A DNA stretch of 64,000 bases from Halolamina litorea (lineage in GTDB: Archaea; Halobacteriota; Halobacteria; Halobacteriales; Haloferacaceae), in the NCBI RefSeq assembly GCF_026616205.1, contig NZ_JANHGR010000001.1:868001-932000 (forward strand), in the 5' to 3' direction. The notes beneath the pieces are model-generated. The model saw only the letters and a list, made by a program, of their open reading frames with translations. It ran no database searches and was not told where the DNA came from. Shown here one piece after another: positions 27,875-44,128 of this stretch. The position numbers and the translations under genes are program-made. How positions within the stretch are numbered: position 1 is the stretch's first letter; the number at the start of each line of letters is the position of its first letter.

Positions 27875-28753
27875 TTACGGCTCCTCGTTACGCCGGTAGG
27901 CGTCGATAGCCGGCTCGTACCCCTCGTAGACGGACGGGAACGTCGGCTCGTACCCCAGTTCCAACAGCCGGTCGTTCCGGCATCGTTTCTGACTGGCGAC
28001 GCGCAGCCCCGACGATCCGGAGACGCCCGCAAGTCGCTCTTCGACGGTCAGTTTCTCCGGTTCCGGCTCGCCACACTGCTCGGCCAGCCAGTCGGCGAAC
28101 GCCCAGCGGTCGACGGGCGTGCCGTCGCTCACGAGGACGGTCTCCCCGCGGGCGACGTCTTCGGTCAGGAACCACGCCAGCGCGCCGGCGGCGTCGTCGC
28201 GGTGGACCGAGTTCCGCCAGCCCGCCGTCACCGAGTCGAGGTACGACTCGATCCGGTAGCGACCCGGGCCGTAGAGCCCGGCGAAGCGCGCCACGGTGCT
28301 ATCGAACTCGCTCCGGTGGACGAGCGCCTCGGCCTCAGCGATCACCGCGGCTTTGGGTCGCTCCGGGGCGACCGGCGTCGATTCGTCCACCCAGTCACCG
28401 TCGTGGTCGCCGTAGACGCCGGTCGTGGAGGTGAACAGCAGCCGTTCGGGCAACTGATCGCGCCCCGTGAACTCGGTGACGACGGCGCCGAGGCCGTCGA
28501 CGTAGAGCGAACGCGCCCTTTCGACGCTCCCGCGGCCCGCCGATGCGGCGAAGACCAGCGCGTCCGCGTCGGGGAGCGACCCCACTGCTTTCGGGTCGGT
28601 CAGATCAGCCTGAACCGCGCTGACGCCAGCAGCCTCGACGGCGTCGGCACTCGACTCCGAGCGGACGACGCCGGTGACGGTGTGTCCCGCGTCGAGCAAC
28701 TGCCGTCCGAGTTCCCGGCCGACGTAGCCACAGCCGAGTATCAGGACGTGCAT
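27875..28753 (-). CDS. NAD(P)-dependent epimerase/short-chain dehydrogenase-like protein
   Basis: 292 residues. The Rossmann nucleotide-binding loop is ILGCGYVGRELGRQLLDAGH. STTGVYGDHDGDWVDE contains the Ser and Tyr of the extended-SDR active site, although the Lys of YxxxK is not obvious. FAGLYGPGR and WRNSVHRDDAAGAL are typical of the YeeZ/SDR_a-type subgroup. It is probably an NAD(P)-binding epimerase or reductase with an unknown substrate. The TGATG overlap with the upstream gene implies translational coupling. It is the last gene of the minus-strand series. Confidence 0.87.
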   Translation of the reverse strand: MHVLILGCGYVGRELGRQLLDAGHTVTGVVRSESSADAVEAAGVSAVQADLTDPKAVGSLPDADALVFAASAGRGSVERARSLYVDGLGAVVTEFTGRDQLPERLLFTSTTGVYGDHDGDWVDESTPVAPERPKAAVIAEAEALVHRSEFDSTVARFAGLYGPGRYRIESYLDSVTAGWRNSVHRDDAAGALAWFLTEDVARGETVLVSDGTPVDRWAFADWLAEQCGEPEPEKLTVEERLAGVSGSSGLRVASQKRCRNDRLLELGYEPTFPSVYEGYEPAIDAYRRNEEP

Positions 28754-29178
28754 CAGCGTCGGGCGTCGACGTACGCTTGGACAGCGGCGAACTGGGCGAG
28801 GGTCGCCGGCAGCCGCCCTTCGATCAGTTGCTGTATCTCCTTGCCGTCGAGGTCGAGATCCGTCTCGCGAGCGATGGTGTCGACGTCGACGACCGCCGCC
28901 GACATCCCCATCAGGACGTGATCGCGGGCCTCCCACGCGATCGATTCGGCGTCCGGCGCGCCGTCCTCGAGTGCGAGCACCGCGGCCGCCTCTTCGAGGG
29001 TGAGCTCCGGTTCATCACCGTCGGCGAGCGCCGCCACCGTGTCCCGGTCGAGCCCCGTGGCACCGACGACGGTGTCGACGCCCAGTTCCGCGACGACCGC
29101 CGCCAGTTCCGCGAAGTACGTCGCCCGGAGCGCCGACGGCGACAGCTCCTCGCCGGCCTCGGCTACGTCGTGCAACAT
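28753..29178 (-). CDS. Conserved haloarchaeal protein (DUF5791-like)
   Basis: 141 residues, all alpha. LRATYFAELAAVVAELGVDT, GLDRDTVAALADGDEPELTL and the C-terminal DLDGKEIQQLIEGRLPATLA suggest two helix-turn-helix-like bundles, as in the haloarchaeal family I remember as DUF5791. No metal ligands. It overlaps the following epimerase gene by one base. It lies 35 bases downstream of the pilus-type operon. Function unknown. Confidence 0.82.
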   Translation of the reverse strand: MLHDVAEAGEELSPSALRATYFAELAAVVAELGVDTVVGATGLDRDTVAALADGDEPELTLEEAAAVLALEDGAPDAESIAWEARDHVLMGMSAAVVDVDTIARETDLDLDGKEIQQLIEGRLPATLAQFAAVQAYVDARR

Positions 29179-29213
29179 AGCCGCCTGTGGGCGTCGCCCG
29201 GGCAAAACGGTTG

Positions 29214-32200
29214 TTACTCCGGCTGGTTACCGTCCTCGCAGGCGTCGCCGTGCTCCACGCCAGGACAGGGCCACCCGGGCGACTGTTCGTCCCGGTTCCC
29301 GTCGACGTCGCCGACGCCGGGCGGTCCCGACGGGACGACGGCGACGACCGTCGTCGATGCGTCGAACGATACGCGTTCGTTCCTGCCGAGGACCTCCGCC
29401 TCGCCGTCGCCGTCGGCGTCGAAGCGAACCGTCGATCCGTCCCGGACGTAGCGAACCACGCCCCCACTCCCGTCCGGGCCGGTGCCCGCCGCTCGCACAG
29501 CGAACCGCCCGTACTCCCCGCGGACGGTGACGCTCCAGGCGTTCGCGGTCGCGATCCAAGGGTACGGCGGCGGTGCGACCGGGACGCCGGCCGGCAGCCG
29601 GGACGCCCCAGTGAGCCGTCGCATCGCACGCCGGCTGGCGTTCTCCGTCAGTGCACTCGCCTGCTGGCGAACCAGTCGTTCGGCCAGCCGCTGTGTCGCC
29701 GACGCGGTTCGGTTGGTGGTCGCGGCGGGCACGCTCGTCTCCCGCTCGGCGTCGAGTTCGCGGAGCCGGACCCGCACACGGACTGCCGCTTCGTCGGCCG
29801 TCGCGGCGTCGACGCCCCCAGCCGCCAAGGAATCGGCGAACGCGGCGGCGTAGCTCCCGTTCGCCATCGCCTGCGCCCGGTGGCCCAGCGTCGACCAGCG
29901 GCTTCGGGTGTCGACGACTGCCGCCCGACAACGGTCCCGTTCGATCGCTGTGCCCTCCAGGGCGGCGTCACAGGCTGCCCGTTCCGCGTCCAACGTCGAC
30001 CGGCGGACTGCGACAACGAGTTCCTCACGGGTGCCAGCCAGTACCGCCGACCCGTTCGTCTGCGTGCCGGCCGGCGCAGTCCGGTTCGCCGCGATCAAGG
30101 TCGCCGCCGCAGTGCCGAGGCTCACCTGTCGATCGCCGCCCCCGAACAGCGTGTCCACGAGGCCGTCGGCAACGTCGCCGTACGGCATGGCGACCCAGTT
30201 CGTCGTCCGTGCCGTGAGCGGGTGCGCCGACTCGCCGGCCGGGACGCTCGGCACCCGTTCGTGGTCGACCGGTTCGAGGGTGAGGTAGGCTGGCGAGCCG
30301 TCAGGCGTCATCGAGAGGCCGTCGTCACCGCTTTGCCCGCGCTGGTGCGTTCCGACGGGTGGCACGTCGTCCGCCCCCTCCCGGCCGAGGGCGATCAGTT
30401 CCGAGAGCGACCCTGTGACCCGACCGGGGAGTTCCTCGCGGTAGTCGACGTTCCGACCGCGCGTGTTCGCGGCTCGGTCCTCCAGCGACGCGAGGACGCG
30501 GTCGAGGAACGCTGCCCGCGCGGCGACTCGTGCTCGGTCGGCGACGCCGTCGTAACTCTCCGGGGCGTCGAGTAGCGCCGTCCGGCGCACCCGCAGTCGT
30601 TCTGCCAACAGCGCAGGTGCGTTCGCCTCGCCGACGGCGACCGCCCGGCGCGGCACCGAGACCGAGACGTTCGCGACCCGCTGGCGGAGCCCCCGAAGGT
30701 CCGCGGTGATCCACGCGTCGAGACCGTCGGGCCGCGCCCCGGTGACGGTCCGCGAGTGTTCGAGGGAACGCCCATTGCCGCCCGCCCGAGCGACGGTTTC
30801 TGCGATGGCGTCGATGCCGCCGTTCGCTTCGACCAGCGCCTCTGCTGCACGCCGGCGAGCACCGACGAGGTTCGGGCCGTCGAGAGCGCCGCCGCGCTCG
30901 AACAGCGGTTCCGTCCGCCGGTCCAGTGCCGTGTCGTCGGGCGCGTACATTGCCCCGACATGCACGGCCACGTGGACAGTCTCGTCCCACTCGTCGGTCG
31001 TCGTCCGGAACGTCCCGTTGCGGTACCAGCGCCGCTCGATGGTGTGACGGGTCGTCACCTTGCGCACCGTCTCGACGGTCGCGCCGGTGCGTGTCGAGGG
31101 ATGGGCGACGACGGTGACTCTCGTCCGCTCGCTCGTCCGTTCGGTCAGGAGCGTCCAGTTTTCCAGCCTTGCGGGCGTCCGGGGTTCGCTCGAACGGTTC
31201 AGAACCTCCGTCCGAAGTCGGGCACGGACGCGGTAACTCCCGGCGGTGTCCGGTTGCTCGCTCGCGAGGAACGCCTCGTCGGCCGCGGCAACTGGTTCGG
31301 CGGTGATCGGCGGCGCATCCGGTGGTCGGGGGTCGAACCCGCTCTCCGCCGCCGGGTCCGTATCGGTTCCGACGGCGCCCGGGTCGAGGAGCGTCTTCGT
31401 CCAGTCGGCGGCAGCACCGTGGCGGCCGCCGAGCACGTCGAGCACGCCGACCCGGACTGTCGCCACGCCGACGGCCCGTTCCCCGTCGGGGTCGGCGCGG
31501 CCGAACGCTGCCCGCTGTTGGGCGAGGAGTGCGGCGTTCGTCGAGAGCGCCACGTGGCGGTTCCCGAGCACGTTCTGTATCGGCGCCCCGCCGTAGCGCC
31601 CGTAGGCTCGCGCCATCGTTATCGCCGTCAGCCGCCCGGTCAGCCCTCGTGCGAGCCCTGGTCCGGCGATCGCGCCACGGTTCAGCCGTCTCTCGTACCG
31701 TTCGGTTCGCCGGTGGAGCGCCAGCGTCGGTGTGGCGACGGTCAGACTGACGTTTTGGCGCCGTTCGGCGACGACTCGGCCGTCGTTGTGGGCCCGTATC
31801 GTGACGTTCCGGAGCGTGACGACCATCGACGCTCCGCCGTCTGTCGGTCGCACGTCGACCCCGCGTTTGGCCCGCCGGAACGACTCAGTCGCGCCATCGA
31901 TCGCGGGAAGCCCCGCCGTTGCGGTGACTCCGTTCCGCCGGCGGGTGATCCCCGAGAGGGCCTCGCGAGCCTCTGCGGCGATCCTGAGTCGAAGCGCGTC
32001 GGCGAAGGGCGCTGACTCGTTCACTGCCCGGCCGGCCGGCGTATCGGCCGGCGCGGTCACCGGTTCGAGAGCGGATTCCCGGGCGGCGGTACGGACTGCG
32101 GCCCGTAGTGCCGGACGGGTATCACGGCTCACGTCGTCCATCGCCGCTCCGGCGGGTCGTTCGACCGACGGCGCCGAACGGTCGGCGACGCCCGTCGCGT

Positions 32201-32279
32201 ATACCGAGGCGCCGAGCAGCACCAACACGCCGATCAGCGCGAAAGGGACCCGGCCGCGTCGGTCGTCACAGAAGCTCAC
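29214..32279 (-). CDS. Large membrane-anchored protein of the pilus-like operon (DUF7286-like)
   Basis: 1021 residues. The N-terminus is short, basic then hydrophobic (DDRRGRVPFALIGVLVLLGA at about 4-23), like class III (pilin-type) signals. The remainder is a very long, mostly extracellular Ala/Arg-rich region with helical stretches and many N-X-S/T sites, ending in a Cys-containing tail. The GTG at 32279 overlaps the upstream stop (GTGA), which fixes the start. The family is found, from memory, next to T2SS/T4P ATPase genes in haloarchaea (DUF7286). It may be a structural or tip component of the surface filament; no enzyme motif is seen. Confidence 0.82.
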   Translation of the reverse strand: MSFCDDRRGRVPFALIGVLVLLGASVYATGVADRSAPSVERPAGAAMDDVSRDTRPALRAAVRTAARESALEPVTAPADTPAGRAVNESAPFADALRLRIAAEAREALSGITRRRNGVTATAGLPAIDGATESFRRAKRGVDVRPTDGGASMVVTLRNVTIRAHNDGRVVAERRQNVSLTVATPTLALHRRTERYERRLNRGAIAGPGLARGLTGRLTAITMARAYGRYGGAPIQNVLGNRHVALSTNAALLAQQRAAFGRADPDGERAVGVATVRVGVLDVLGGRHGAAADWTKTLLDPGAVGTDTDPAAESGFDPRPPDAPPITAEPVAAADEAFLASEQPDTAGSYRVRARLRTEVLNRSSEPRTPARLENWTLLTERTSERTRVTVVAHPSTRTGATVETVRKVTTRHTIERRWYRNGTFRTTTDEWDETVHVAVHVGAMYAPDDTALDRRTEPLFERGGALDGPNLVGARRRAAEALVEANGGIDAIAETVARAGGNGRSLEHSRTVTGARPDGLDAWITADLRGLRQRVANVSVSVPRRAVAVGEANAPALLAERLRVRRTALLDAPESYDGVADRARVAARAAFLDRVLASLEDRAANTRGRNVDYREELPGRVTGSLSELIALGREGADDVPPVGTHQRGQSGDDGLSMTPDGSPAYLTLEPVDHERVPSVPAGESAHPLTARTTNWVAMPYGDVADGLVDTLFGGGDRQVSLGTAAATLIAANRTAPAGTQTNGSAVLAGTREELVVAVRRSTLDAERAACDAALEGTAIERDRCRAAVVDTRSRWSTLGHRAQAMANGSYAAAFADSLAAGGVDAATADEAAVRVRVRLRELDAERETSVPAATTNRTASATQRLAERLVRQQASALTENASRRAMRRLTGASRLPAGVPVAPPPYPWIATANAWSVTVRGEYGRFAVRAAGTGPDGSGGVVRYVRDGSTVRFDADGDGEAEVLGRNERVSFDASTTVVAVVPSGPPGVGDVDGNRDEQSPGWPCPGVEHGDACEDGNQPE

Positions 32280-33115
32280 GGCGACCACGTCCGTACGGAG
32301 ATCTCGACAGTCTCCAGTTCGAGCCTGACGGTCACCTCGTCTGAATCACCCGGGCCACGGAGGTCTGCGGCGATCCTGTCGGCCATCGCCGCCGCGATCA
32401 GTCGGTTCGCGGCGTGAGTGGCGCCTCGATCGATCGCTTCGTCCGTATCCACGCCGTACTGCTCGTCCACCCGCTGGTAGCGATGGCGCACGAGGTCGTC
32501 TACCGGTGGGTCACCGGCAAGCGCCAGCCGCCCCTTCTCGGGCGGCAGGAGCCCGGCGACCAGCGACTCGGCCGCGGCACGACCGATCGCGTCGGGGGAC
32601 TGGTTCGCGGTCTCTCGGTCTGTCAGTCCATCGACCCCACTCGGTGCGAACACGGTCGCCGCGTACACGTCTGCGTCCGGGGGCGGCGACGGTCCGACCG
32701 CGAACGCACGGCCCACGTCACCGCCCGGGACCGGCTCCCACGTCACCTCGACACGAGTCCGTGGCGGCAGTTGTTCGGCGACAGTCTCCCGAACCGCCGC
32801 CGCGAACCCCTCGCTCGTCCCGGTGAGCGCTTCGCCGTCGACGTGAACCGTCCGAACGGCGGCGTCGGCCAACAGCGAGACGAGTGTGCCGTGAGCGACC
32901 CGGCGGAGCTCGGGGTTGTCGTCGCCGGCCGATCCGGGAACCGGTCGCAGCCGGTACGGAACCTCCGCAGTCGTCGCGGCCAGCGTCTCGGCGACTGCGT
33001 CGGCACGGTTGGCGTCGCCAGGGCCGGCCTCCGGCGTTGGCGCGCTCGTGACGGTGACGGCGGCGGCGCTGAGCAACAGCAGACACAGACAGGCGTCCAG
33101 CGCTGCGCTGGTCAT
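32276..33115 (-). CDS. Secreted/membrane protein of the pilus-like operon (DUF7284-like)
   Basis: 279 residues. A hydrophobic start (ALDACLCLLLLSAAAVTVTS, about 4-23) is followed by an extracytoplasmic domain that includes RLRPVPGS, RVEVTWEPVPGGD and a conserved middle with RQ-type helices. It probably functions as an anchored subunit. It overlaps both neighbours by four bases (ATGA and GTGA). A long in-frame upstream extension lies within the preceding gene and is rejected. The family number is from memory. Confidence 0.8.
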   Translation of the reverse strand: MTSAALDACLCLLLLSAAAVTVTSAPTPEAGPGDANRADAVAETLAATTAEVPYRLRPVPGSAGDDNPELRRVAHGTLVSLLADAAVRTVHVDGEALTGTSEGFAAAVRETVAEQLPPRTRVEVTWEPVPGGDVGRAFAVGPSPPPDADVYAATVFAPSGVDGLTDRETANQSPDAIGRAAAESLVAGLLPPEKGRLALAGDPPVDDLVRHRYQRVDEQYGVDTDEAIDRGATHAANRLIAAAMADRIAADLRGPGDSDEVTVRLELETVEISVRTWSP

Positions 33116-33522
33116 CGGTGAATCACCACTCGAAGCCACCCCGACCTGACCTGGCCGGGACTGATCCGGATCGGTACGCGGCGGTCTGCGGCCCGTGACT
33201 CGGCCGTTGGTTTCGGTGCCGGCCCGGCACTCCACCGTCGGTCTCCGGCACGCAGTTCGACGTAGAGTTCCCACCCGTCGGGCCCGACACTCGTCGAGGG
33301 GGCTACCTCTCCTGGGGCAGCGACGCCAGCCGGTGCGACGACATCGTGAACTGCCGAGAGCGTCGGCGTTGCTACGTCGCGGTGGGTCGTCGGGACGGCG
33401 CCGGCGAAGGCGGTGGCGTACAGCGAGAGTCCGAGGCCGATGGCCGTGACGGCGACCAGCGCCGCCGTCGGCGACACCTGCCCACGGCGCTCAGACGCCG
33501 ACGAGGGTAAAGCGCTCCCCAT
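33112..33522 (-). CDS. Pilin-like minor subunit of the pilus-like operon (DUF7285-like)
   Basis: 136 residues. The N-terminus ERRGQVSPTAALVAVTAIGL has the archaeal type IV pilin pattern: basic residues, Gly before the cleavage position, then Gln-Val-Ser-Pro and a hydrophobic helix. The remaining 100 residues form a short beta-rich exported domain (WELYVELRAGDRRW). A prepilin peptidase is not in the window. The start overlaps the upstream gene by 32 bases. It is a candidate minor pilin. Confidence 0.8.
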   Translation of the reverse strand: MGSALPSSASERRGQVSPTAALVAVTAIGLGLSLYATAFAGAVPTTHRDVATPTLSAVHDVVAPAGVAAPGEVAPSTSVGPDGWELYVELRAGDRRWSAGPAPKPTAESRAADRRVPIRISPGQVRSGWLRVVIHR

Positions 33523-33973
33523 CCCAACTCACCCCCGTAACGGTGATTTTCTCGGACGCGACCCACCGTGGATCGCGGTTCCGTGCTGCCTCGACCGCGG
33601 CGATGAACGCGTCACGGTCGGAGAAGGCGGTCTGGGGTGCAGTTCCTGCGAGCACCGCCCGGAGTGGTCCGTCTCGAACGGGCACGATGGGACCGAACGC
33701 GAAGGTCGCGTGCGCGGTGCCGCCCTCGTTCCGGAGCGCGATCCCGTCGGGTCGGAGCCTGACGCTGTCGGCTGCATGTCCGTGAGTCGTGATAGACGGT
33801 GCCTCCGCGACGGCGACGCGGTCGACGGTGTCGGCGACGCCACCGGCGTCCGGTGCGGGGCGGGCCGGGAGCGACCCGGCGACCGCGATGAACGCGACTG
33901 CAGCGAGCACGAGGCCGGCGTGGAGCGCCGGCGAGTCGGTCGGGAAAGAGAGCACGGGGCGGAGTGGCCCCAT
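33491..33973 (-). CDS. Exported protein of the pilus-like operon (DUF7283-like)
   Basis: 160 residues with one N-terminal membrane segment (GLVLAAVAFIAVAGSL, about 20-35) followed by an extracellular beta-rich domain containing VRLRPDGIALRNEGGTAHAT and GPIVPVRDG. The latter resembles the fragments by which archaeal pilin-like proteins pack (GN/G-rich beta strands). It starts 21 bases after the stop of the membrane-platform gene. Function unknown; presumed filament-associated by context. Confidence 0.78.
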   Translation of the reverse strand: MGPLRPVLSFPTDSPALHAGLVLAAVAFIAVAGSLPARPAPDAGGVADTVDRVAVAEAPSITTHGHAADSVRLRPDGIALRNEGGTAHATFAFGPIVPVRDGPLRAVLAGTAPQTAFSDRDAFIAAVEAARNRDPRWVASEKITVTGVSWDGERFTLVGV

Positions 33974-33994
33974 TCTCCCACTTGAACTCTCGGC

Positions 33995-35743
33995 TCAGAG
34001 CAGCGTCCCGGCGGCGACGACCGCCGCGACGTACGCCGCCGTCGCCGTCGGGAGCGCGATACCGACCCGGTAGCCGATCAGCGAGCGGTCGAGACCGCGT
34101 TCCAACGCGGTTGCCAGCCCGGTCAGAATGGCTGCCAGCAAGAGGACGTACAGGCCGACGACTGGACCGATAGCCGCGATGTCGAGTGCCGCCTCGCCGG
34201 AAGCGGGCGTCGTCCCGGTGGCTGTCGCTGTCCCCGCAGCCGTGCCACGGACCGAGCGGCCGGCGTCGGGGAGCCGACCCACCATCGCCACCGACACGCC
34301 GCCGACGAGCGGGCCGAAGAGGGCGGCCGTGTTCGACAGCGTCCCGGTGATGGACGCCAGTTCGCGGCGCGCGTCGCGTTCGACTCGCGCGAGTTCCCGC
34401 AGGTGCTCGCCGGCCGCGATCAGGGCGTCACCCGCCGGTTCCCCTTCCGTCGCGGCGACACCGAACAGCCGACCGGCGTAGCGGGCCCGTGGGCTCGGTA
34501 CGTCATGCAGCGCGCCGAACCGACCGAAGAACCCGCCCTCGACGGGCAGTCCCAGTCGCTCCAGCCGTCCGACTGCCTCCTCGATCAACTCGCCTGCAGG
34601 CCCCGGCAGTTCGTCGGCGACCTCTTCGAGCGCCCGCTCGACCGCCACCCCGTCCGCGACACGCCGCCCGACCAGCGAGAGCGCGTCCGGTATGCCGGAC
34701 TCGACCGCGCGGAGTTCGCGTCGGAGTTCCCTCGCCGGAGCGAACAGCCACACGAGCGCCACGCCGCCACCGACACCGAGCGCACCGACCGGTGCTGCCC
34801 ACGGGAGGACGACCAGACAAACGACACCGGCGAGTGTCCCTGTCGCCGCTCCGAGCAGGCTGGCCGCCAACCGACGGTCGGGAACGTCCGGATGTGTGCT
34901 GTCGACCGGCGCCGGTGGGAAGGAGACCGGCCGCCGGGCGAGCAGCCAGCCACTCGCTGTGATCAAGCCGCCGGGGAGGATGACGTCGTACAACACGGCC
35001 AGTGTGCTGACACCGAGTCTTACGCCGGCGAGTCTCGCTGCCGGAAGCACGCCGACGAGCGCGAGCGGCAGCAACACGCCGAACGCGTAAAGCCCCGTCA
35101 ACGCCGGCCGTACGTCGCCGGCGAAGGCAGCGGCGCGTTCCTCGACCCCAGCGCGGACCGTCTCCAGCGCCCGTTCACACGCCCGTTCGCGTGCCTCGGC
35201 CGGCGCCTCGGCAGCGTCGACGACCAATGCGGCCGCCCGCTCGATGCTCGGGGCGCGGTCACCCCACTCGGCCGCGAACGACTGGAACCCCGCGTCCGGC
35301 GTCCCGCGGGACCGACGGGCGTGCGCCTGCAAGGAACCTGCGAGGGTGTCGCCGCCGCCGGCGAACTCGACGGCCCGCTCCAGATTCGGCTCGATTCGGA
35401 GTCGCAACGTCAGACGGCCGAACAGGGCGGGCGCCTCGCCGACGGCGCGGGTCGTCGCTACCGCCGCCATCGCTGGGGGGACCTGACGCGTGGCGAGTAG
35501 CGGGGTGATACCGGCCACGAGCGCGAGTGGCAGCAGCCCCGGCGAAATCACGGCGGCGACGGCGCCGGCCCCGATGAGTGCAACCGCGCCGACCACCTCG
35601 CCGGCGGCGACGAGTTCGGCCGCATCCGGCCACCCGAGGCGGTCACAGGCCTCGACGAGGTCTGACGGTGGTTCGGGCCCTCGGGGCCACGAAGCAGCGA
35701 CCCGCACAACGACTCGTTCGACATCGCGCTGGTCCACTACCAC
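33995..35743 (-). CDS. Type II secretion/type IV pilus platform protein (T2SSF, PilC/TadC-like)
   Basis: 582 residues. Two repeats of the T2SSF fold are seen: the first (about 60-290) with helices around GLLPLALVAGITPLLATR and LTGLYAFGVLLPLALVGVLP, the second (about 320-575) with FAPARELRRELRAVESGIPDALSLVGRRV divided by short turns, and paired helices ending the protein. It forms the inner-membrane platform driven by the ATPase. The start is GTG at 35743 (a second GTG at 35737 is two codons later), overlapping the ATPase stop. A longer in-frame extension is only a shadow of the ATPase gene. Confidence 0.88.
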   Translation of the reverse strand: MVVDQRDVERVVVRVAASWPRGPEPPSDLVEACDRLGWPDAAELVAAGEVVGAVALIGAGAVAAVISPGLLPLALVAGITPLLATRQVPPAMAAVATTRAVGEAPALFGRLTLRLRIEPNLERAVEFAGGGDTLAGSLQAHARRSRGTPDAGFQSFAAEWGDRAPSIERAAALVVDAAEAPAEARERACERALETVRAGVEERAAAFAGDVRPALTGLYAFGVLLPLALVGVLPAARLAGVRLGVSTLAVLYDVILPGGLITASGWLLARRPVSFPPAPVDSTHPDVPDRRLAASLLGAATGTLAGVVCLVVLPWAAPVGALGVGGGVALVWLFAPARELRRELRAVESGIPDALSLVGRRVADGVAVERALEEVADELPGPAGELIEEAVGRLERLGLPVEGGFFGRFGALHDVPSPRARYAGRLFGVAATEGEPAGDALIAAGEHLRELARVERDARRELASITGTLSNTAALFGPLVGGVSVAMVGRLPDAGRSVRGTAAGTATATGTTPASGEAALDIAAIGPVVGLYVLLLAAILTGLATALERGLDRSLIGYRVGIALPTATAAYVAAVVAAGTLL

Positions 35744-37692
35744 GTTCCCACCCCCTCCTCGGTCATCCTCTCCACTCCAGCGCCCCGTTCCATCCGTTCT
35801 GCGCGGATCGTCGAGGGCCGGACTACGCCGTCGTCGGCGAGCGAACGCAAGTGGTCGGCCCGCTCGCGAAGTCGTGCCAGTACGTCCGTGTAACGCTCGT
35901 CCGGTGTCGACATCCCGGCGAGCAGACTGCTTTCCCCACGGTCGAGCCGACCCGTCGGGGTGAGGTCCCCGCGGTCGTCGAGCGTGAACAACGGCTGGAT
36001 ATCGGTTCCACCGTCGACCGCCTCTACTTCCTCGAGGGCGACGGCGCGGCGACCACGGTCGGTGTCGGCCACGGTGAGAACGAACCCCGTCGCCCCGAAC
36101 GCCGACTCCTTCACGCCGAGGTCCTCGGTCATCCGGGTTCGGATCGCCTCGGCACCGTCGCCGTGGACCGTTCCGAGCACCGTCCCCGATGCGGCGCCGA
36201 CCCGCATCGCCTCGTACAGCGTTCCGGCCTCCTCGCCCCTCACCTCGCCGACGACGAGGGCGCCCTCGCCTAACCGGAGCGCCGTCCGGAGCGCCGAATC
36301 GGGTGTCGTCTCGCCGGTGGCGCCGTCGCCGCGCGCGACGCTGAGTGCCTGCACGTCGCGGCCCGCCGCCTGCAGCGCCGCGGCCGGGAGTTCGGGCGTG
36401 TCCTCGATCAACACCGTCCGCGTTCGCCGTGGGAGCGCCCAGAGAAGCGCACCGAGCGTGGTCGTCTTCCCGGCACCTCGGGCGCCCGCGACGAGTCCGG
36501 CGGCGCCCCGCTCGACGGCGAGTGAGAGCAGCGCGGCCGCACGCGCCGAGAGCGAGCCAGTCGCCACGAGCCGGGGCAGCGTCCACGGCGTCGCGTCGTG
36601 GCGCCGGAGCGCGAACCCCGTACCCGGAGAGAGCGGTCGGGTCACGCCTGCCACGCGAACCTGCTCTTGCTCCCCGGGTGGACCAACCGGAATCCCGGCG
36701 TCGACCTGCGGACTCGCCCGCGAGAACGCGCGGCCGCTCGCCCGCCGAACCCGTGAGGCCAGCGTCGTGACGCCCTCCGGCGTGAGCCGCACGTTCGTCG
36801 GCATCGTCTCGTCGTCGACGACGACCCGGACCGGCGTCGCCGTCACGGGAGCGGTGATGTAGACATCCGAGACGCGAGCGTCGGCGAACAGGTCCGCCAG
36901 CACGCCCACTCCGCGGGTGTGTTTCCGGAGTGTTTCGGTAAGTGCCTCGACGGGGCGCCCGTCGTCGGCGACTGCCCGGACGGCTCTCGCCGGCCCGAAC
37001 GCTCCGGAGCCCCCGGCGTCGGCGAGCCACGACGCCGCCTCGTCGAGTAGTTCGAACGCCTCCGGGTCGAACGACGCCGAGGCCGGTGTGAGGTGGTAGA
37101 GTGAGTCGTCACCCGTGGGTGACTCCGTGCCCAACGCGTACCGCCTGACCGTTCCCCCCGTCGGGATCGGTTCGGTATCACGGAGTCGCGCCCCGGCGGG
37201 TGATCGGTGGTCGACTCGACAGCGAGCGATCACGGGGCCGCCGTGGGAGCGGAACACGTCGTCATCGTCCACGCACTCGGCACCGGCGGCGAGACCCGTT
37301 TCCCCGGCGAGTCGACCAATCGGACCCGCTCGCCCGGCGGCCTCGTGTGCCGCCGCCAGCGGGTCGGTTCGCGCCGTCGCGGCGATGGCGTCGTCGTGGT
37401 GGCTCGCCAGCGCAACGAAGCGCCCGGCAGCGGTGAGGAGCGCCACCGCGTCGTCGGCGTACCAGCGCTCGTAGCCGCCCGATCGGCTGCGGACGGCGTC
37501 GGCGTCCCGGTCCGCCAGCGCGTCGACGACGGTCCCGCGGCAGGGCGACGACGATGCGAGATCGCCACCTCCCGAGCAGCCGTCGGCGTCCACACGGAGT
37601 TCAACGCGGTCCTCGACGCCCGTTCCTCCGACCTCGACGAACGACGCTCGGCAGCGACACGCCTCCTCAGGTGCCCGCGTGAACAGTGACAT
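35737..37692 (-). CDS. Type II/IV secretion system ATPase (PilB/TadA/VirB11-like)
   Basis: 651 residues. The C-terminal ATPase domain has Walker A in VAGARGAGKTTTLGALLW (about 395-412), the Asp box VLIEDTPELP, Walker B-like LVVGEVRGEEAGTLYEAMRV and the His box GTVLGTVHGDGAEAIRTR. The N-terminal 220 residues are a haloarchaea-specific region with three Cys-containing motifs (CRCRA, CSGGGD, SPCRG). It would power assembly of the surface filament or secretion. It overlaps the upstream gene by 26 bases and the platform gene downstream by 7. Confidence 0.92.
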   Translation of the reverse strand: MSLFTRAPEEACRCRASFVEVGGTGVEDRVELRVDADGCSGGGDLASSSPCRGTVVDALADRDADAVRSRSGGYERWYADDAVALLTAAGRFVALASHHDDAIAATARTDPLAAAHEAAGRAGPIGRLAGETGLAAGAECVDDDDVFRSHGGPVIARCRVDHRSPAGARLRDTEPIPTGGTVRRYALGTESPTGDDSLYHLTPASASFDPEAFELLDEAASWLADAGGSGAFGPARAVRAVADDGRPVEALTETLRKHTRGVGVLADLFADARVSDVYITAPVTATPVRVVVDDETMPTNVRLTPEGVTTLASRVRRASGRAFSRASPQVDAGIPVGPPGEQEQVRVAGVTRPLSPGTGFALRRHDATPWTLPRLVATGSLSARAAALLSLAVERGAAGLVAGARGAGKTTTLGALLWALPRRTRTVLIEDTPELPAAALQAAGRDVQALSVARGDGATGETTPDSALRTALRLGEGALVVGEVRGEEAGTLYEAMRVGAASGTVLGTVHGDGAEAIRTRMTEDLGVKESAFGATGFVLTVADTDRGRRAVALEEVEAVDGGTDIQPLFTLDDRGDLTPTGRLDRGESSLLAGMSTPDERYTDVLARLRERADHLRSLADDGVVRPSTIRAERMERGAGVERMTEEGVGTW

Positions 37693-38155
37693 GGGGTCGT
37701 TGGTCCCGGTCTCGTACTTGAGTCCTCGGCAGGGAGTCGGCGGCGACTCGGACGACCCGACCGTCGACGCCGTCGACGAGCGTCAGCGTCAGTCGGTACT
37801 CGCCGGGCGTTCCGAACCGGATCGGTCCGTCGGCGGTCGTCAGCGGGAGCGCGAGGCGGTACGTCCGTGACCCGCCGCCATCGAGGGTGTACCGAACCGC
37901 ACAGTTCGAACGACACCCCACCGCGAAGCGCTCGACGCCGGCGGCGGTCAACGACGCCCCCGGGAGCGTGATGCGTACCGTCCGCCGTGCGCCCGGATCG
38001 TCCTCGGCGAGCAGCGAGTGGCCCGCACGCGCCAGCCGGTCGAGATCCCGGTCGAGGCTGGCACGTGTTCGATCCGTCGCCGCCGACTCGACCGCCGGGA
38101 CTGCGGCCCCGAAGAGTGCGGCAGCCAGCGCGACGGCGAGGAGCACACGGATCAC
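37667..38155 (-). CDS. Exported protein of the pilus-like operon (DUF7311-like)
   Basis: 162 residues with a signal-type N-terminus (VLLAVALAAALFGAAVPAV, about 4-22), then RASLDRDLDRLARAGHSLL and an extracellular beta-rich domain with FAVGCRSNCAVRYTL, a Cys pair that could form a disulfide. It overlaps both neighbours (ATGA upstream, 26 bases downstream). Function unknown; the DUF number is from memory. Confidence 0.78.
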   Translation of the reverse strand: MIRVLLAVALAAALFGAAVPAVESAATDRTRASLDRDLDRLARAGHSLLAEDDPGARRTVRITLPGASLTAAGVERFAVGCRSNCAVRYTLDGGGSRTYRLALPLTTADGPIRFGTPGEYRLTLTLVDGVDGRVVRVAADSLPRTQVRDRDQRPHVTVHAGT

Positions 38156-38604
38156 CGCAGGCCCCGGAGTCGCTCCCGAAGCCCGTGGTTCGACGCGCTC
38201 TCGGTACCTCCGTCGTCTACCGACTCGCGGTCGCTGGAGCGGTCACATCCGTACTCGTTAGCAGTCGCCCGCTCGTCACTGTCCTCGCCGAAACGCTCCT
38301 CGATGCTGCCTTCGGTGTCCCCGTGGATCTCCGTCTCCAACCGATCGACGGCGGCGACGGCGGCGTCAGCGCGGCGCTCGACGGACTCGTTCACCGCGGA
38401 GACGCCGCCGAGGAACCCACGGACCGCCTGTAGAGCGGCGTCCAGTTCCTCGACCCGCGTTTCGAGCGTATCGAGCCGTCCGTCGACGTCGTGCCCGCGC
38501 GAGACGGCGTCGATGTCGTTGTCGCCGACGGCTCCGTCGTCGCCGTCGCCGAGTGCGCGTTCGACCGCCGCGAGCCGTCGTTCGAGGTCCTCGCTGTCGA
38601 CCAT
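38152..38604 (-). CDS. Coiled-coil protein heading the pilus-like operon (DUF7310-like)
   Basis: 150 residues. Two heptad regions, MVDSEDLERRLAAVERALG (1-19) and RLDTLETRVEELDAALQAVR (about 43-62), plus an acidic linker and a basic end (GLRERLRGLR). No signal peptide; probably cytoplasmic. It is the first gene of the minus-strand series and divergent from cetZ with 86 bases between start codons. It may regulate or scaffold the secretion ATPase. Confidence 0.78.
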   Translation of the reverse strand: MVDSEDLERRLAAVERALGDGDDGAVGDNDIDAVSRGHDVDGRLDTLETRVEELDAALQAVRGFLGGVSAVNESVERRADAAVAAVDRLETEIHGDTEGSIEERFGEDSDERATANEYGCDRSSDRESVDDGGTESASNHGLRERLRGLR

Positions 38605-38690: not shown

Positions 38691-39827
38691 ATGAAGACGG
38701 TCCTCGTCGGTGTGGGGCAGGCGGGTGGAAAGGTGACGACTGCCCTCGCCGAGTACGACGACGAGATGGGCTTTCACGCCGTGCGCGACGCCCTCGCGGT
38801 CAACAGTGCGAAAGCGGACCTCCAGAACCTCCCGCTCGAGACGGTGTTGATCGGCCAGGACGTGGTGAAGGGCCACGGCGTCGGCGGCGACAACGAACTC
38901 GGCGCCGAGGTGATGCAGCGCGACGCCGACGAGGTGGTCAACGCCCTCGGCGACAAGATTGACTCGGCGACGGAGGCGGTGTTCGTCGTCGCGGGGCTAG
39001 GTGGTGGGACGGGTTCGGGGGGCGCGCCGGTGCTCGCGAAGGAGCTCAAACGGATCTACGACGTACCGATATACACCATCGGCATCCTCCCCGGTCGGGA
39101 CGAAGGGTCGCTCTATCAGGCGAACGCCGGCCGCTCGCTCAAGACGCTCGCCCGCGAGGCCGACTCGGTGCTCCTGATCGACAACGACGCGTGGCGCGAG
39201 AGCGGCGACAGCGTCGCCGAGGGGATGGCGTCGATCAACGAGCGCATTGCGCGCCGTGTCGGGCTACTGCTCGCGGCCGGCGAACCCATCGAGGATCGCT
39301 CGCTCGGTCTCGGGGGCGGCGGCGTCGACCGGGACGTGGCCCAGAGCGTCGTCGACACCAGCGAGGTCATCAACACCCTCCGGAAGGGGGGGCTCGCTGC
39401 CGTCGGGTACGCCGAGTCCCCGGCCAGCGAGGACGCCGACGACAACGTCAACGTGGTCACGAGTACGACTCGACAGGCGCTGCTGACCGGGACCAGCCTT
39501 CCCGACGCGACGGCGGCCGACGCCGCCCTCCTCGTCGTCGCCGGCCGCCCGGACACCCTCTCTCGGAAGGGGGTCGAGCGGGCCCGCTCGTGGGTCGAAG
39601 AGGAGACCGGCAGCATGGAGGTCCGCGGCGGGGACTTCCCGCTCGAGACCGACGCGATCTCCTCGTTGGTCCTGCTGAGCGGCGTCGAACGCTCCCCCCG
39701 GATCAAGGAGTTCATGAACCGCGCCGCGGAGGCACAGGCCGACGCCCGGGACGAACGGGACGAAGGCGCTGCCAAGCGCGACGCCGCCGCGTCGTTCCAG
39801 AACGACGAACTGGACGACCTGTTCTGA
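38691..39827 (+). CDS. cetZ: CetZ tubulin-like protein
   Basis: 378 residues. The tubulin/FtsZ GTP-binding motif is GLGGGTGSGGAPVLAKE (about 102-118). The N-terminus MKTVLVGVGQAGGKV and the acidic C-terminal QNDELDDLF agree with CetZ, a haloarchaeal cytoskeletal family controlling rod shape and motility in Haloferax. The T7 catalytic region is present but diverged relative to FtsZ, as usual for CetZ. Which CetZ paralogue it is cannot be set. CTTAAC at 38670-38675 is the likely TATA box, about 16-21 bases upstream. A longer in-frame start is rejected. Confidence 0.95.
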   Translation: MKTVLVGVGQAGGKVTTALAEYDDEMGFHAVRDALAVNSAKADLQNLPLETVLIGQDVVKGHGVGGDNELGAEVMQRDADEVVNALGDKIDSATEAVFVVAGLGGGTGSGGAPVLAKELKRIYDVPIYTIGILPGRDEGSLYQANAGRSLKTLAREADSVLLIDNDAWRESGDSVAEGMASINERIARRVGLLLAAGEPIEDRSLGLGGGGVDRDVAQSVVDTSEVINTLRKGGLAAVGYAESPASEDADDNVNVVTSTTRQALLTGTSLPDATAADAALLVVAGRPDTLSRKGVERARSWVEEETGSMEVRGGDFPLETDAISSLVLLSGVERSPRIKEFMNRAAEAQADARDERDEGAAKRDAAASFQNDELDDLF

Positions 39828-39893: not shown

Positions 39894-40415
39894 ATGCGCG
39901 AGTACGCCGACGACCCGCCGATCGAGCAACGCATCGGTGACGCCCTCCGGGAGCGTGACGCCACCGTCGCCGTCGCCGAGTCCTGTACGGGCGGCCTGAT
40001 CGGGTCGCTCCTGACCGACGTGCCGGGCTCCTCGGACTACTTCGACCGCTCGGTCGTCACCTACTCCTACGACGCAAAGCTGACCGAGTTGGCGGTCTCC
40101 CGGGAGAGCCTCGACGGCCACGGCGCCGTCTCGGCACCAGTCGCCGAACAGATGGCCGCCGGCGTCAGGGACACCGCGGGAGCGACGTTCGGCCTCTCGA
40201 CGACGGGGATCGCCGGTCCCGAGGGTGGCAGCGAGGAGAAACCCGTTGGAACGGTGTTCATCGGCCGCGCCTACGCCGCCGACTGGGGGACCGGTGGCTC
40301 CTACACCGAGGTCTCCCGCCACGTCTTCGACGGTTCGCGGACCGAGATCAAAGAACAGATCGCGCGGAAAGCACTGGAACTGCTGCTGTCCGACGCCGAT
40401 CTGTCGGACCGCTGA
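39894..40415 (+). CDS. pncC: CinA/PncC-family nicotinamide-nucleotide amidohydrolase
   Basis: 173 residues, the single-domain form. The catalytic Ser-Lys region has AVAESCTGGLIGSLLTDVPG (about 26-45) with YSYDAKLTELAVS and GLSTTGIAGPEGGSEEKPVGT. The family hydrolyses nicotinamide mononucleotide to nicotinate mononucleotide in pyridine-nucleotide recycling. No partner genes are adjacent. 66 bases separate it from cetZ. Confidence 0.92.
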   Translation: MREYADDPPIEQRIGDALRERDATVAVAESCTGGLIGSLLTDVPGSSDYFDRSVVTYSYDAKLTELAVSRESLDGHGAVSAPVAEQMAAGVRDTAGATFGLSTTGIAGPEGGSEEKPVGTVFIGRAYAADWGTGGSYTEVSRHVFDGSRTEIKEQIARKALELLLSDADLSDR

Positions 40416-42958: not shown

Positions 42959-44128
42959 TCAGTTCACGTCCTGCAGCTGCTCGCGGGAGGGGCCGCGACC
43001 GGCGCCCTCGCCGCCGGCGTAGATCTGGGGGGACTCCACCCCAGTCACGACGATCATCGTCCGCATCCGACCCTCGATCTCCTCGTCGACGGAGGTCCCC
43101 CAGATGATCCGGGCGTCGGGGTCGATCCGGTCGTAGATCTCCTCGACGACGCCCTCGGCCTCGCCGATGGACATGTCCGAGCCGCCGGTGACGTTGACCA
43201 GCGCCGAGTTCGCCCCGGAGATGTCCACGTCCAACAGCGGCGACCGGAGCGCGGACTGCACCGAGTCCTCGGCTTTCTCCTCGGTGTCGGACTCGCCCAG
43301 CCCGATCATGGCGACGCCACCCTTCTCCATGACGGTCCGAACGTCGGCGAAGTCGAGGTTGACCAGCCCGGGCTTGGTGATGAGTTCGGTGATTCCCTTC
43401 ACCGAGCGCATCAGCACCTCGTCGGAGACCTTGAACGCCTGCTTGACCGGGAGCTTGCCCACGGCGTCAAGGAGGCGGTCGTTGGGCACGACGATCACGG
43501 TGTCGGAGACGTCACGGAGCCGTTCGAGGCCGGCCTCGGCGTTGGTCCGTCGGACCTCACCCTCGGCGGTGAACGGCGTCGTCACGATGGAGATGGTCAG
43601 CGCGCCCGCGGCCTGTGCGGCCTTGGCGACGACGGGCGCCGAGCCGGTCCCGGTGCCGCCGCCGAGCCCGGCGGTGACAAAGACCATGTCCGAGCCGGCG
43701 ATGGAGTCCTTGATCTCCTCTTGGGACTCGATGGCTGCCTCTTCCCCGACCTGCGGGAGCGACCCCGCACCGCGGCCCTGGGTCTTCTCCTTGCCCATCA
43801 GGATCTTGGTGTCGGCCTCGATGGAGACGAGGTGCTGCACGTCGGTGTTCGCTGCGACCAGCTTCGCGCCGTGAATCCCCTCCTCGTGCATGCGGTTGAC
43901 GGTGTTCCCGCCGGCACCCCCACAACCGACGACCGTGATGTTGGTCTTCAGGTCCTGCAGGACCTCCTGAAGCTGCTCGTCGGTCATCTTCCCCGAAGCG
44001 GGAGTGTCGCCGCCGGTGTCAACGTCGGCGTCGGGCTCGGCAGCCCCCTCATCATCGGCCGTCGGCTCCGGTTCCCCGCTGCCTTCGCCTTCGGCCTCGT
44101 CGATTGCCTCTTCTACGATGGAGTCCAT
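42959..44128 (-). CDS. ftsZ1: Cell division protein FtsZ1
   Basis: 389 residues. The GTP-binding glycines are in [20 protein letters not shown] (about 148-167), with [16 protein letters not shown] at the N-terminus of the GTPase domain and the T7-loop in [21 protein letters not shown] 48-residue acidic N-terminal extension precedes the domain. Adjacency to secE-spt5 is the position I remember for ftsZ1 (HVO_0717) in Haloferax. FtsZ1 builds the cytokinetic scaffold together with FtsZ2. The C-terminus DVN lacks the long tail of FtsZ2. Confidence 0.93.

Follow-up and report, generated by a model that had tools for sequence, protein, structure and literature searches.

A PilB2/PilC2 operon beside cetZ2 in Halolamina litorea probably encodes a type IV filament-class machine

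RESULTS AND DISCUSSION

A catalogued locus that matches subclade 4F

A ten-gene operon bordering cetZ2 in a 64,000-nucleotide stretch of the Halolamina litorea genome (the window) probably encodes a type IV filament-class machine of archaeal subclade 4F (PilB2/PilC2) that would assemble pilin-like subunits. A sequence-only reading of the window had proposed a machine of this class whose exported subunits are its own and in part resemble pilins, and our analysis supports it: the motor and platform have homologs in other systems, the genes are inherited together, and leaders are conserved in two of the exported subunits. All ten open reading frames (ORFs) that it had placed on the minus strand were present there (Table 1), and Pfam agreed with the DUF numbers that it had given (7283, 7284, 7285, 7286, 7310, and 7311).

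Surveys published in 2016 and 2023 already list the system (PMC4858521, PMC9856176), which is therefore not new; the earlier label “uncharacterized” holds for its function only. In the main text of Makarova 2016, halobacterial 4F systems have an ATPase with a Cys-rich N-terminal domain, a unique intracellular coiled-coil protein (arCOG07564), and an ftsZ-like neighbor (PMC4858521). By synteny and domain features the window locus matches this subclade, sharing with the systems described there the Cys-domain ATPase, the TadC platform, a probable counterpart of the coiled coil, the exported or pilin-like genes, and the ftsZ-like neighbor. In that main text we found neither the missing leaders nor the decayed remnants, the shifted cysteine ligand, or the methanogen cassette reported here. 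Brown and Duggin 2023 described a pilB2/C2 regulon adjoining cetZ2, with arCOG04674 and arCOG03095 (PMC9856176), and the window shows the same neighborhood (cetZ2, pilB2 [arCOG01818], arCOG04674, and arCOG03095). A literature search found no experiment on PilB2/C2 of the window type, and guessed tags for the Haloferax volcanii loci around cetZ2 gave no hit in the literature.

Table 1. Features of the window operon and its surroundings, and sarcinarray MAST genes of methanogen loci
Feature	Coordinates	Strand	Assignment and support
Operon, ten ORFs	38604-27875	minus	ORF calls and Pfam
DUF7310	38152..38604	(-)	150 aa; PF23991, 4.5e-25
DUF7311	37667..38155	(-)	PF23993, 1.5e-41
PilB2	35737..37692	(-)	VirB11/TadA-type assembly ATPase; PF00437 (T2SSE), 3.8e-20
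PilC2	33995..35737	(-)	PilC/TadC (T2SSF) platform; GTG start at 35737 or 35743
DUF7283	33491..33973	(-)	PF23954, 2.8e-43
DUF7285	33112..33522	(-)	PF23956, 6.6e-32
DUF7284	32276..33115	(-)	PF23955, 3.8e-81
DUF7286	29214..32288	(-)	PF23957, 1039.6 bits
DUF5791	28753..29178	(-)	PF19104, 1.5e-48
NAD-dependent epimerase	27875..28753	(-)	PF01370, 8.2e-16
cetZ2	38691..39827	(+)	Tubulin family; divergent, borders operon; bit score to CetZ2 4b45
cinA-like gene	39894-40415
Second tubulin-family gene	42959-44128	(-)	FtsZ-like
Sarcinarray MAST protein	L076:13921-14487		TIGR04209
Sarcinarray MAST protein	L080:4421-5032		TIGR04209
Sarcinarray MAST protein	L081:13586-14194		TIGR04209

The operon reads as coupled blocks

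Seven of the nine junctions in the window operon overlap or abut, so the earlier description of overlap at almost every junction stood except for two gaps, one between the platform gene and DUF7283 (21 nt) and one between DUF7286 and DUF5791 (35 nt, counted from ATG). The DUF7310/DUF7311 and DUF7285/DUF7284 junctions are 4-base overlaps (GTGA and ATGA, respectively), and the remaining overlaps measure 26 bases (DUF7311/ATPase), 1 or 7 bases (ATPase/platform, by choice of GTG start), 32 bases (DUF7283/DUF7285), 13 or 4 bases (DUF7284/DUF7286), and 1 base (DUF5791/epimerase). Both gaps recur among the 80 named relatives, the closest of which are Halolamina species: a gap precedes DUF7283 in all 80 (median, 57) and DUF5791 in most (median, 52). 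Given this recurrence, the operon reads as four coupled blocks, DUF7310-DUF7311, PilB2-PilC2, DUF7283-DUF7285-DUF7284-DUF7286, and DUF5791-epimerase. The complete eight-gene order, DUF7310 to DUF7286, was retained in 31 of 40 and in 71 of 80 relatives, far above chance. As had been noted earlier, the operon contains no archaellum gene, prepilin peptidase, or canonical (PilA) pilin; elsewhere, the genome encodes a single prepilin peptidase of the A24 family along with six PilA-type pilins.

Motor and platform

The solved relatives nearest to PilB2 were Archaeoglobus GspE (2oap; 1.5e-39) and CpaF/TadA (2e-34), with FlaI at 1e-24 and only weak similarity to BasE. The common ATPase fold explains most of the score for BasE, FlaI, and TadA. 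We rejected an archaellum, given that the operon holds no archaellin or accessory genes and that PilB2 lies far under the FlaI family cutoff (77.7 bits, compared to 550). A Tad/Flp pilus was likewise rejected: although CpaF/TadA is among the solved relatives closest to the ATPase, the operon proteins include a single platform and not a TadB/TadC pair, and there is no TadZ, TadV, secretin, or Flp pilin among them. The earlier term “Tad-like” thus fits the ATPase and no other gene.

The N-terminal domain of PilB2 contains four cysteines (C12-x-C14, C39, and C51). This CxC..C..C motif was found in 102 of 108 haloarchaeal members, and methanogen homologs also have four cysteines, arranged as C..CxxC..C. 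Since all four are kept while one shifts position, the pattern suggests a metal site and not the disulfides proposed in 2016. PilC2 is predicted to be multispanning, with about 7 transmembrane (TM) helices. A Pfam search with the window protein gave no match, 17 of 27 orthologs matched T2SSF (PF00482; best value, 7e-5), and a profile search found no solved relative of PilC2.

Leaders of the exported subunits

One TM helix each was predicted for DUF7311, DUF7283, DUF7285, DUF7284, and DUF7286; in DUF7311 and DUF7283, it is N-terminal. As judged from predicted start codons, on which all of the leader calls rest, a class III (prepilin) leader is consistently kept by DUF7285 and DUF7286 only. The pilin-like DUF7285 carries the signal ERRG↓QVSP in the window (the arrow precedes the +1 site); its general pattern is R(G/A)↓QxEP, and about 110 of the 120 haloarchaeal proteins have [KR][GA] immediately ahead of +1. 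DUF7286, an exported protein of about 1000 residues, has the class III-type N terminus DRRG↓RVPFALIGV in the window and follows the pattern D-R-(G/A)↓RVPFALVG, with G or A at −1 in 132 of the 132 members in which the motif was found.

The other three exported proteins differ. DUF7311 of the window starts with MIRVLLAV, has no leader, and has no alternative in-frame start codon upstream before a stop. None of the 107 haloarchaeal DUF7311 proteins has a class III leader, and nearly all start two or three residues ahead of the TM helix; the methanogen orthologs have a longer N terminus with a class III-like motif. A [KR][GA] leader was found in 0 of 119 DUF7283 proteins and is missing from 82 of 120 DUF7284 proteins, including the window member (MTSAALDA). 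This loss raises the question of how pilin-like proteins enter a filament without processing.

AlphaFold2 modeled DUF7284 as one TM helix plus a globular ectodomain (pLDDT, 90.6) and DUF7286 at a pLDDT of 78.9. Fold searches of the PDB with the two models gave no match with an E value below 0.09, and rows for SecB and an N-methyltransferase were judged to be chance. None of the accessory proteins of the operon received a name in an NCBIfam search.

A related cassette in methanogens

The sequence-only reading had held the device to be specific to Halobacteria. By homology it is not, and the pilin cassette is also found in methanogens. DUF7286 was detected in 35 of the sampled non-halobacterial genomes of the phylum, methanogen families among them, and it also matched in Methanosarcina acetivorans, one of the controls. 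The methanogen gene order is a pilin-like DUF7311 ortholog (hhalign, 96.9%), a gene in the DUF7283 position, DUF7285, DUF7284, DUF7286, and a sarcinarray MAST protein; the pairing of the second gene with DUF7283 rests on position, as profile comparison of the two found no link (3.4%). In Methanosarcina-like genomes, DUF7286 is split off from the cassette. The sarcinarray MAST proteins (NCBIfam TIGR04209, 6.8e-48) are encoded directly 3′ of DUF7286, an association for which a literature search found no precedent. Methanogens with the cassette also have a PilB2-like ATPase that scores 390 to 443 bits, compared to at most about 141 for paralogs. Its gene adjoins a platform-like ORF and lies away from the cassette (510 kb away in one genome, G152).

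Proposed assembly of a filament or a short pseudopilus

In our proposal, the ATPase and platform would drive pilin-like subunits outward from the membrane. The single A24 prepilin peptidase of the genome would process DUF7285 and DUF7286, which would then be assembled; DUF7286, by far the largest, would take the tip position and serve in adhesion or binding. Since they do not depend on cleavage of a leader, DUF7284, DUF7283, and DUF7311 could be accessory or minor subunits anchored in the membrane. The major pilin would be DUF7285, in which case a short pseudopilus forms, or else a PilA protein from another locus. In the cytoplasm, DUF7310 and the ATPase's cysteine domain may act in regulation or docking, perhaps with CetZ2 as the partner. 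A machine built in this way might serve in adhesion or surface contact; adhesion, secretion, and cell shape are each putative functions.

Several observations weigh against this proposal. Three of the five exported haloarchaeal proteins have no leader, which is odd for filament subunits; the operon has no major pilin; and the predicted models of DUF7284 and DUF7286 lack a long continuous pilin helix and matched no solved pilin. The main rival explanation is a short pseudopilus for secretion or surface-protein assembly, like the Sulfolobus bindosome or a type II secretion system (T2SS), in which the motor moves a stub of DUF7285 and DUF7286 that exports other proteins or puts them in place. The missing pilin would fit such a stub, as would the combination of one giant and several small subunits (compare the minor pseudopilins of T2SS), the sarcinarray surface proteins that methanogens encode right behind DUF7286, and the weak resemblance of the ATPase to BasE. 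We nonetheless regard it as somewhat unlikely. The common ATPase fold accounts for most of the BasE score, as it does for FlaI and TadA; the six PilA-type pilins are available in trans; and 4F systems are reported in the main text of Makarova 2016 to work with a dedicated PilA pilin in trans (PMC4858521). We favor the filament-class machine.

Co-inheritance and probable repeated loss

We counted the genes of the machine across 145 evenly sampled Halobacteria genomes, about 70% of which have it. DUF7286 was found in 111, DUF7311 in 107, DUF7284 in 106, and PilB2 in 105. PilB2 and DUF7286 occurred together in 105 genomes and were both missing from 34; DUF7286 occurred by itself in 6 and PilB2 in none, in agreement with the co-conservation that the sequence-only reading had called for (Fisher P = 2.5e-27, a statistic that ignores relatedness). 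The weight of the argument rests on losses nested within genera: absences fall in genera whose other members keep the machine (five examples are g5, g9, g21, g39, and g46). Four of the six DUF7286-only genomes hold remnants (G012, G056, G067, and G125), one is broken over contigs (G121), and one has a partial locus (G045). In six further genomes (G033, G077, G116, G117, G120, and G124), the motor lies apart from the pilin cassette and both are kept; at cetZ2, G033 carries a truncated DUF7283 along with the motor and DUF7310, and it has the full cassette with DUF7311 elsewhere (L210/L071). That parts are lost or relocated together argues for one functional unit. The machine parts are the eight strictly co-conserved genes from DUF7310 to DUF7286, a set defined by this co-inheritance, and the remnants and split loci tell them from the neighbors (cetZ2, DUF5791, and the epimerase).

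Two side observations concern copy number and content. The partial locus of G045 (L062) has apparently intact DUF7285, DUF7284, and DUF7286 genes, lacks the motor, DUF7310, DUF7311, and DUF7283, and has several cetZ copies or fragments upstream. Two genomes (G141 and G058) each have two copies of PilB2 and of DUF7286.

The arrangement of cetZ2, operon, and DUF5791 was found in seven sampled families (f1, f2, f3, f4, f6, f7, and f8), and in genomes without the machine, cetZ2 and DUF5791 are often close together. Brown and Duggin 2023 suggested that a mobile element brought the operon in between these two genes only recently, a suggestion to which the many genomes with nothing recognized between them lend some support, as does the published survey, which saw no such association in Natrialbales (PMC9856176). 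We consider this improbable, with both views being drawn from genomes. Remnants lie in the same slot in four genomes: in G125 (L093), DUF7310 is intact and the initial stretch of DUF7311 runs into the last residues of DUF7286, G067 (L095) has DUF7310 and the C terminus of DUF7286, and G012 (L094) and G056 (L195) have parts of DUF7286. The slot is the same across the seven families, and in patristic distance, the correlations of PilB2, PilC2, and DUF7286 with CetZ2 and DUF5791 give r values of 0.79 to 0.91 over 48 loci. The epimerase tree shows little correlation (r, about 0.12), which is due at least in part to one locus (L145) whose very long branch belongs to another dehydrogenase. The remnants in the slot and the congruence of the gene trees with the flanks make an old, repeatedly lost locus more likely than a recent gain.

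DUF7310, CetZ2, and flanking genes

DUF7310 is annotated as a coiled coil, has no predicted TM helix, and is the first operon gene in the 71 of 80 relatives with the complete order. It is the probable counterpart, in the cytoplasm, of the 4F coiled-coil component arCOG07564. The neighboring tubulin-family gene is cetZ2 (476.9 bits to CetZ2 4b45, compared to 335.3 to CetZ1 4b46), and a divergent cetZ accompanies the operon in 57 of the 71. DUF5791 (arCOG04674-type) was present in 144 of 145 Halobacteria genomes, with or without the machine, and the epimerase (arCOG03095-type) stands beside it in many genomes that have no machine. We therefore rejected a role for either inside the machine; both are probably neighbors. 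What the earlier reading called two unrelated small genes proved to be conserved cetZ2 neighbors that persist after machine loss.

CetZ2 as a scaffold is a published idea. A cell-shape or envelope device that anchors or positions CetZ2 and builds no external filament would suit the divergent cetZ2 of most relatives and the changed early biofilm cell shape of an H. volcanii CetZ2 deletion strain (PMC10606840), but it is very unlikely, since many genomes that lack the machine still pair cetZ2 with DUF5791, and others have the machine at a site apart from cetZ2. For the same reasons, the tie between cetZ2 and the machine may be positional.

A tentative wider picture, which we hold with less than even confidence, is that of an old Halobacteriota filament machine whose motor is separable from a pilin cassette, sarcinarray linked in methanogens. 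Haloarchaea would have dropped the leader from two or three of the five exported subunits, leaving only DUF7285 and DUF7286 consistently peptidase dependent, and the DUF7284 ectodomain would have a fold unlike solved structures.

Other haloarchaeal systems and nearby genes

The families of the operon also match in H. volcanii, which is genetically tractable. Adhesion has been shown in that species for PilB1-C1 and PilB3-C3 (PMC6491452), which are also haloarchaeal PilB/PilC motor pairs but are other paralogs, tied to PilA-type or clade 2 pilins; the window operon has no PilA pilin and has DUF7283 to DUF7286 instead. The “pilB2” of Halobacterium salinarum (OE1347R; PMC4292770) shares a name with the window gene, which alone is no ground to equate them, and the main text of Makarova 2016 puts the tested adhesion locus of H. 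salinarum in subclade 4C (PMC4858521). Within the window, a second tubulin-family gene, FtsZ-like, lies ~3 kb past cetZ2, and a cinA-like gene is situated between the two.
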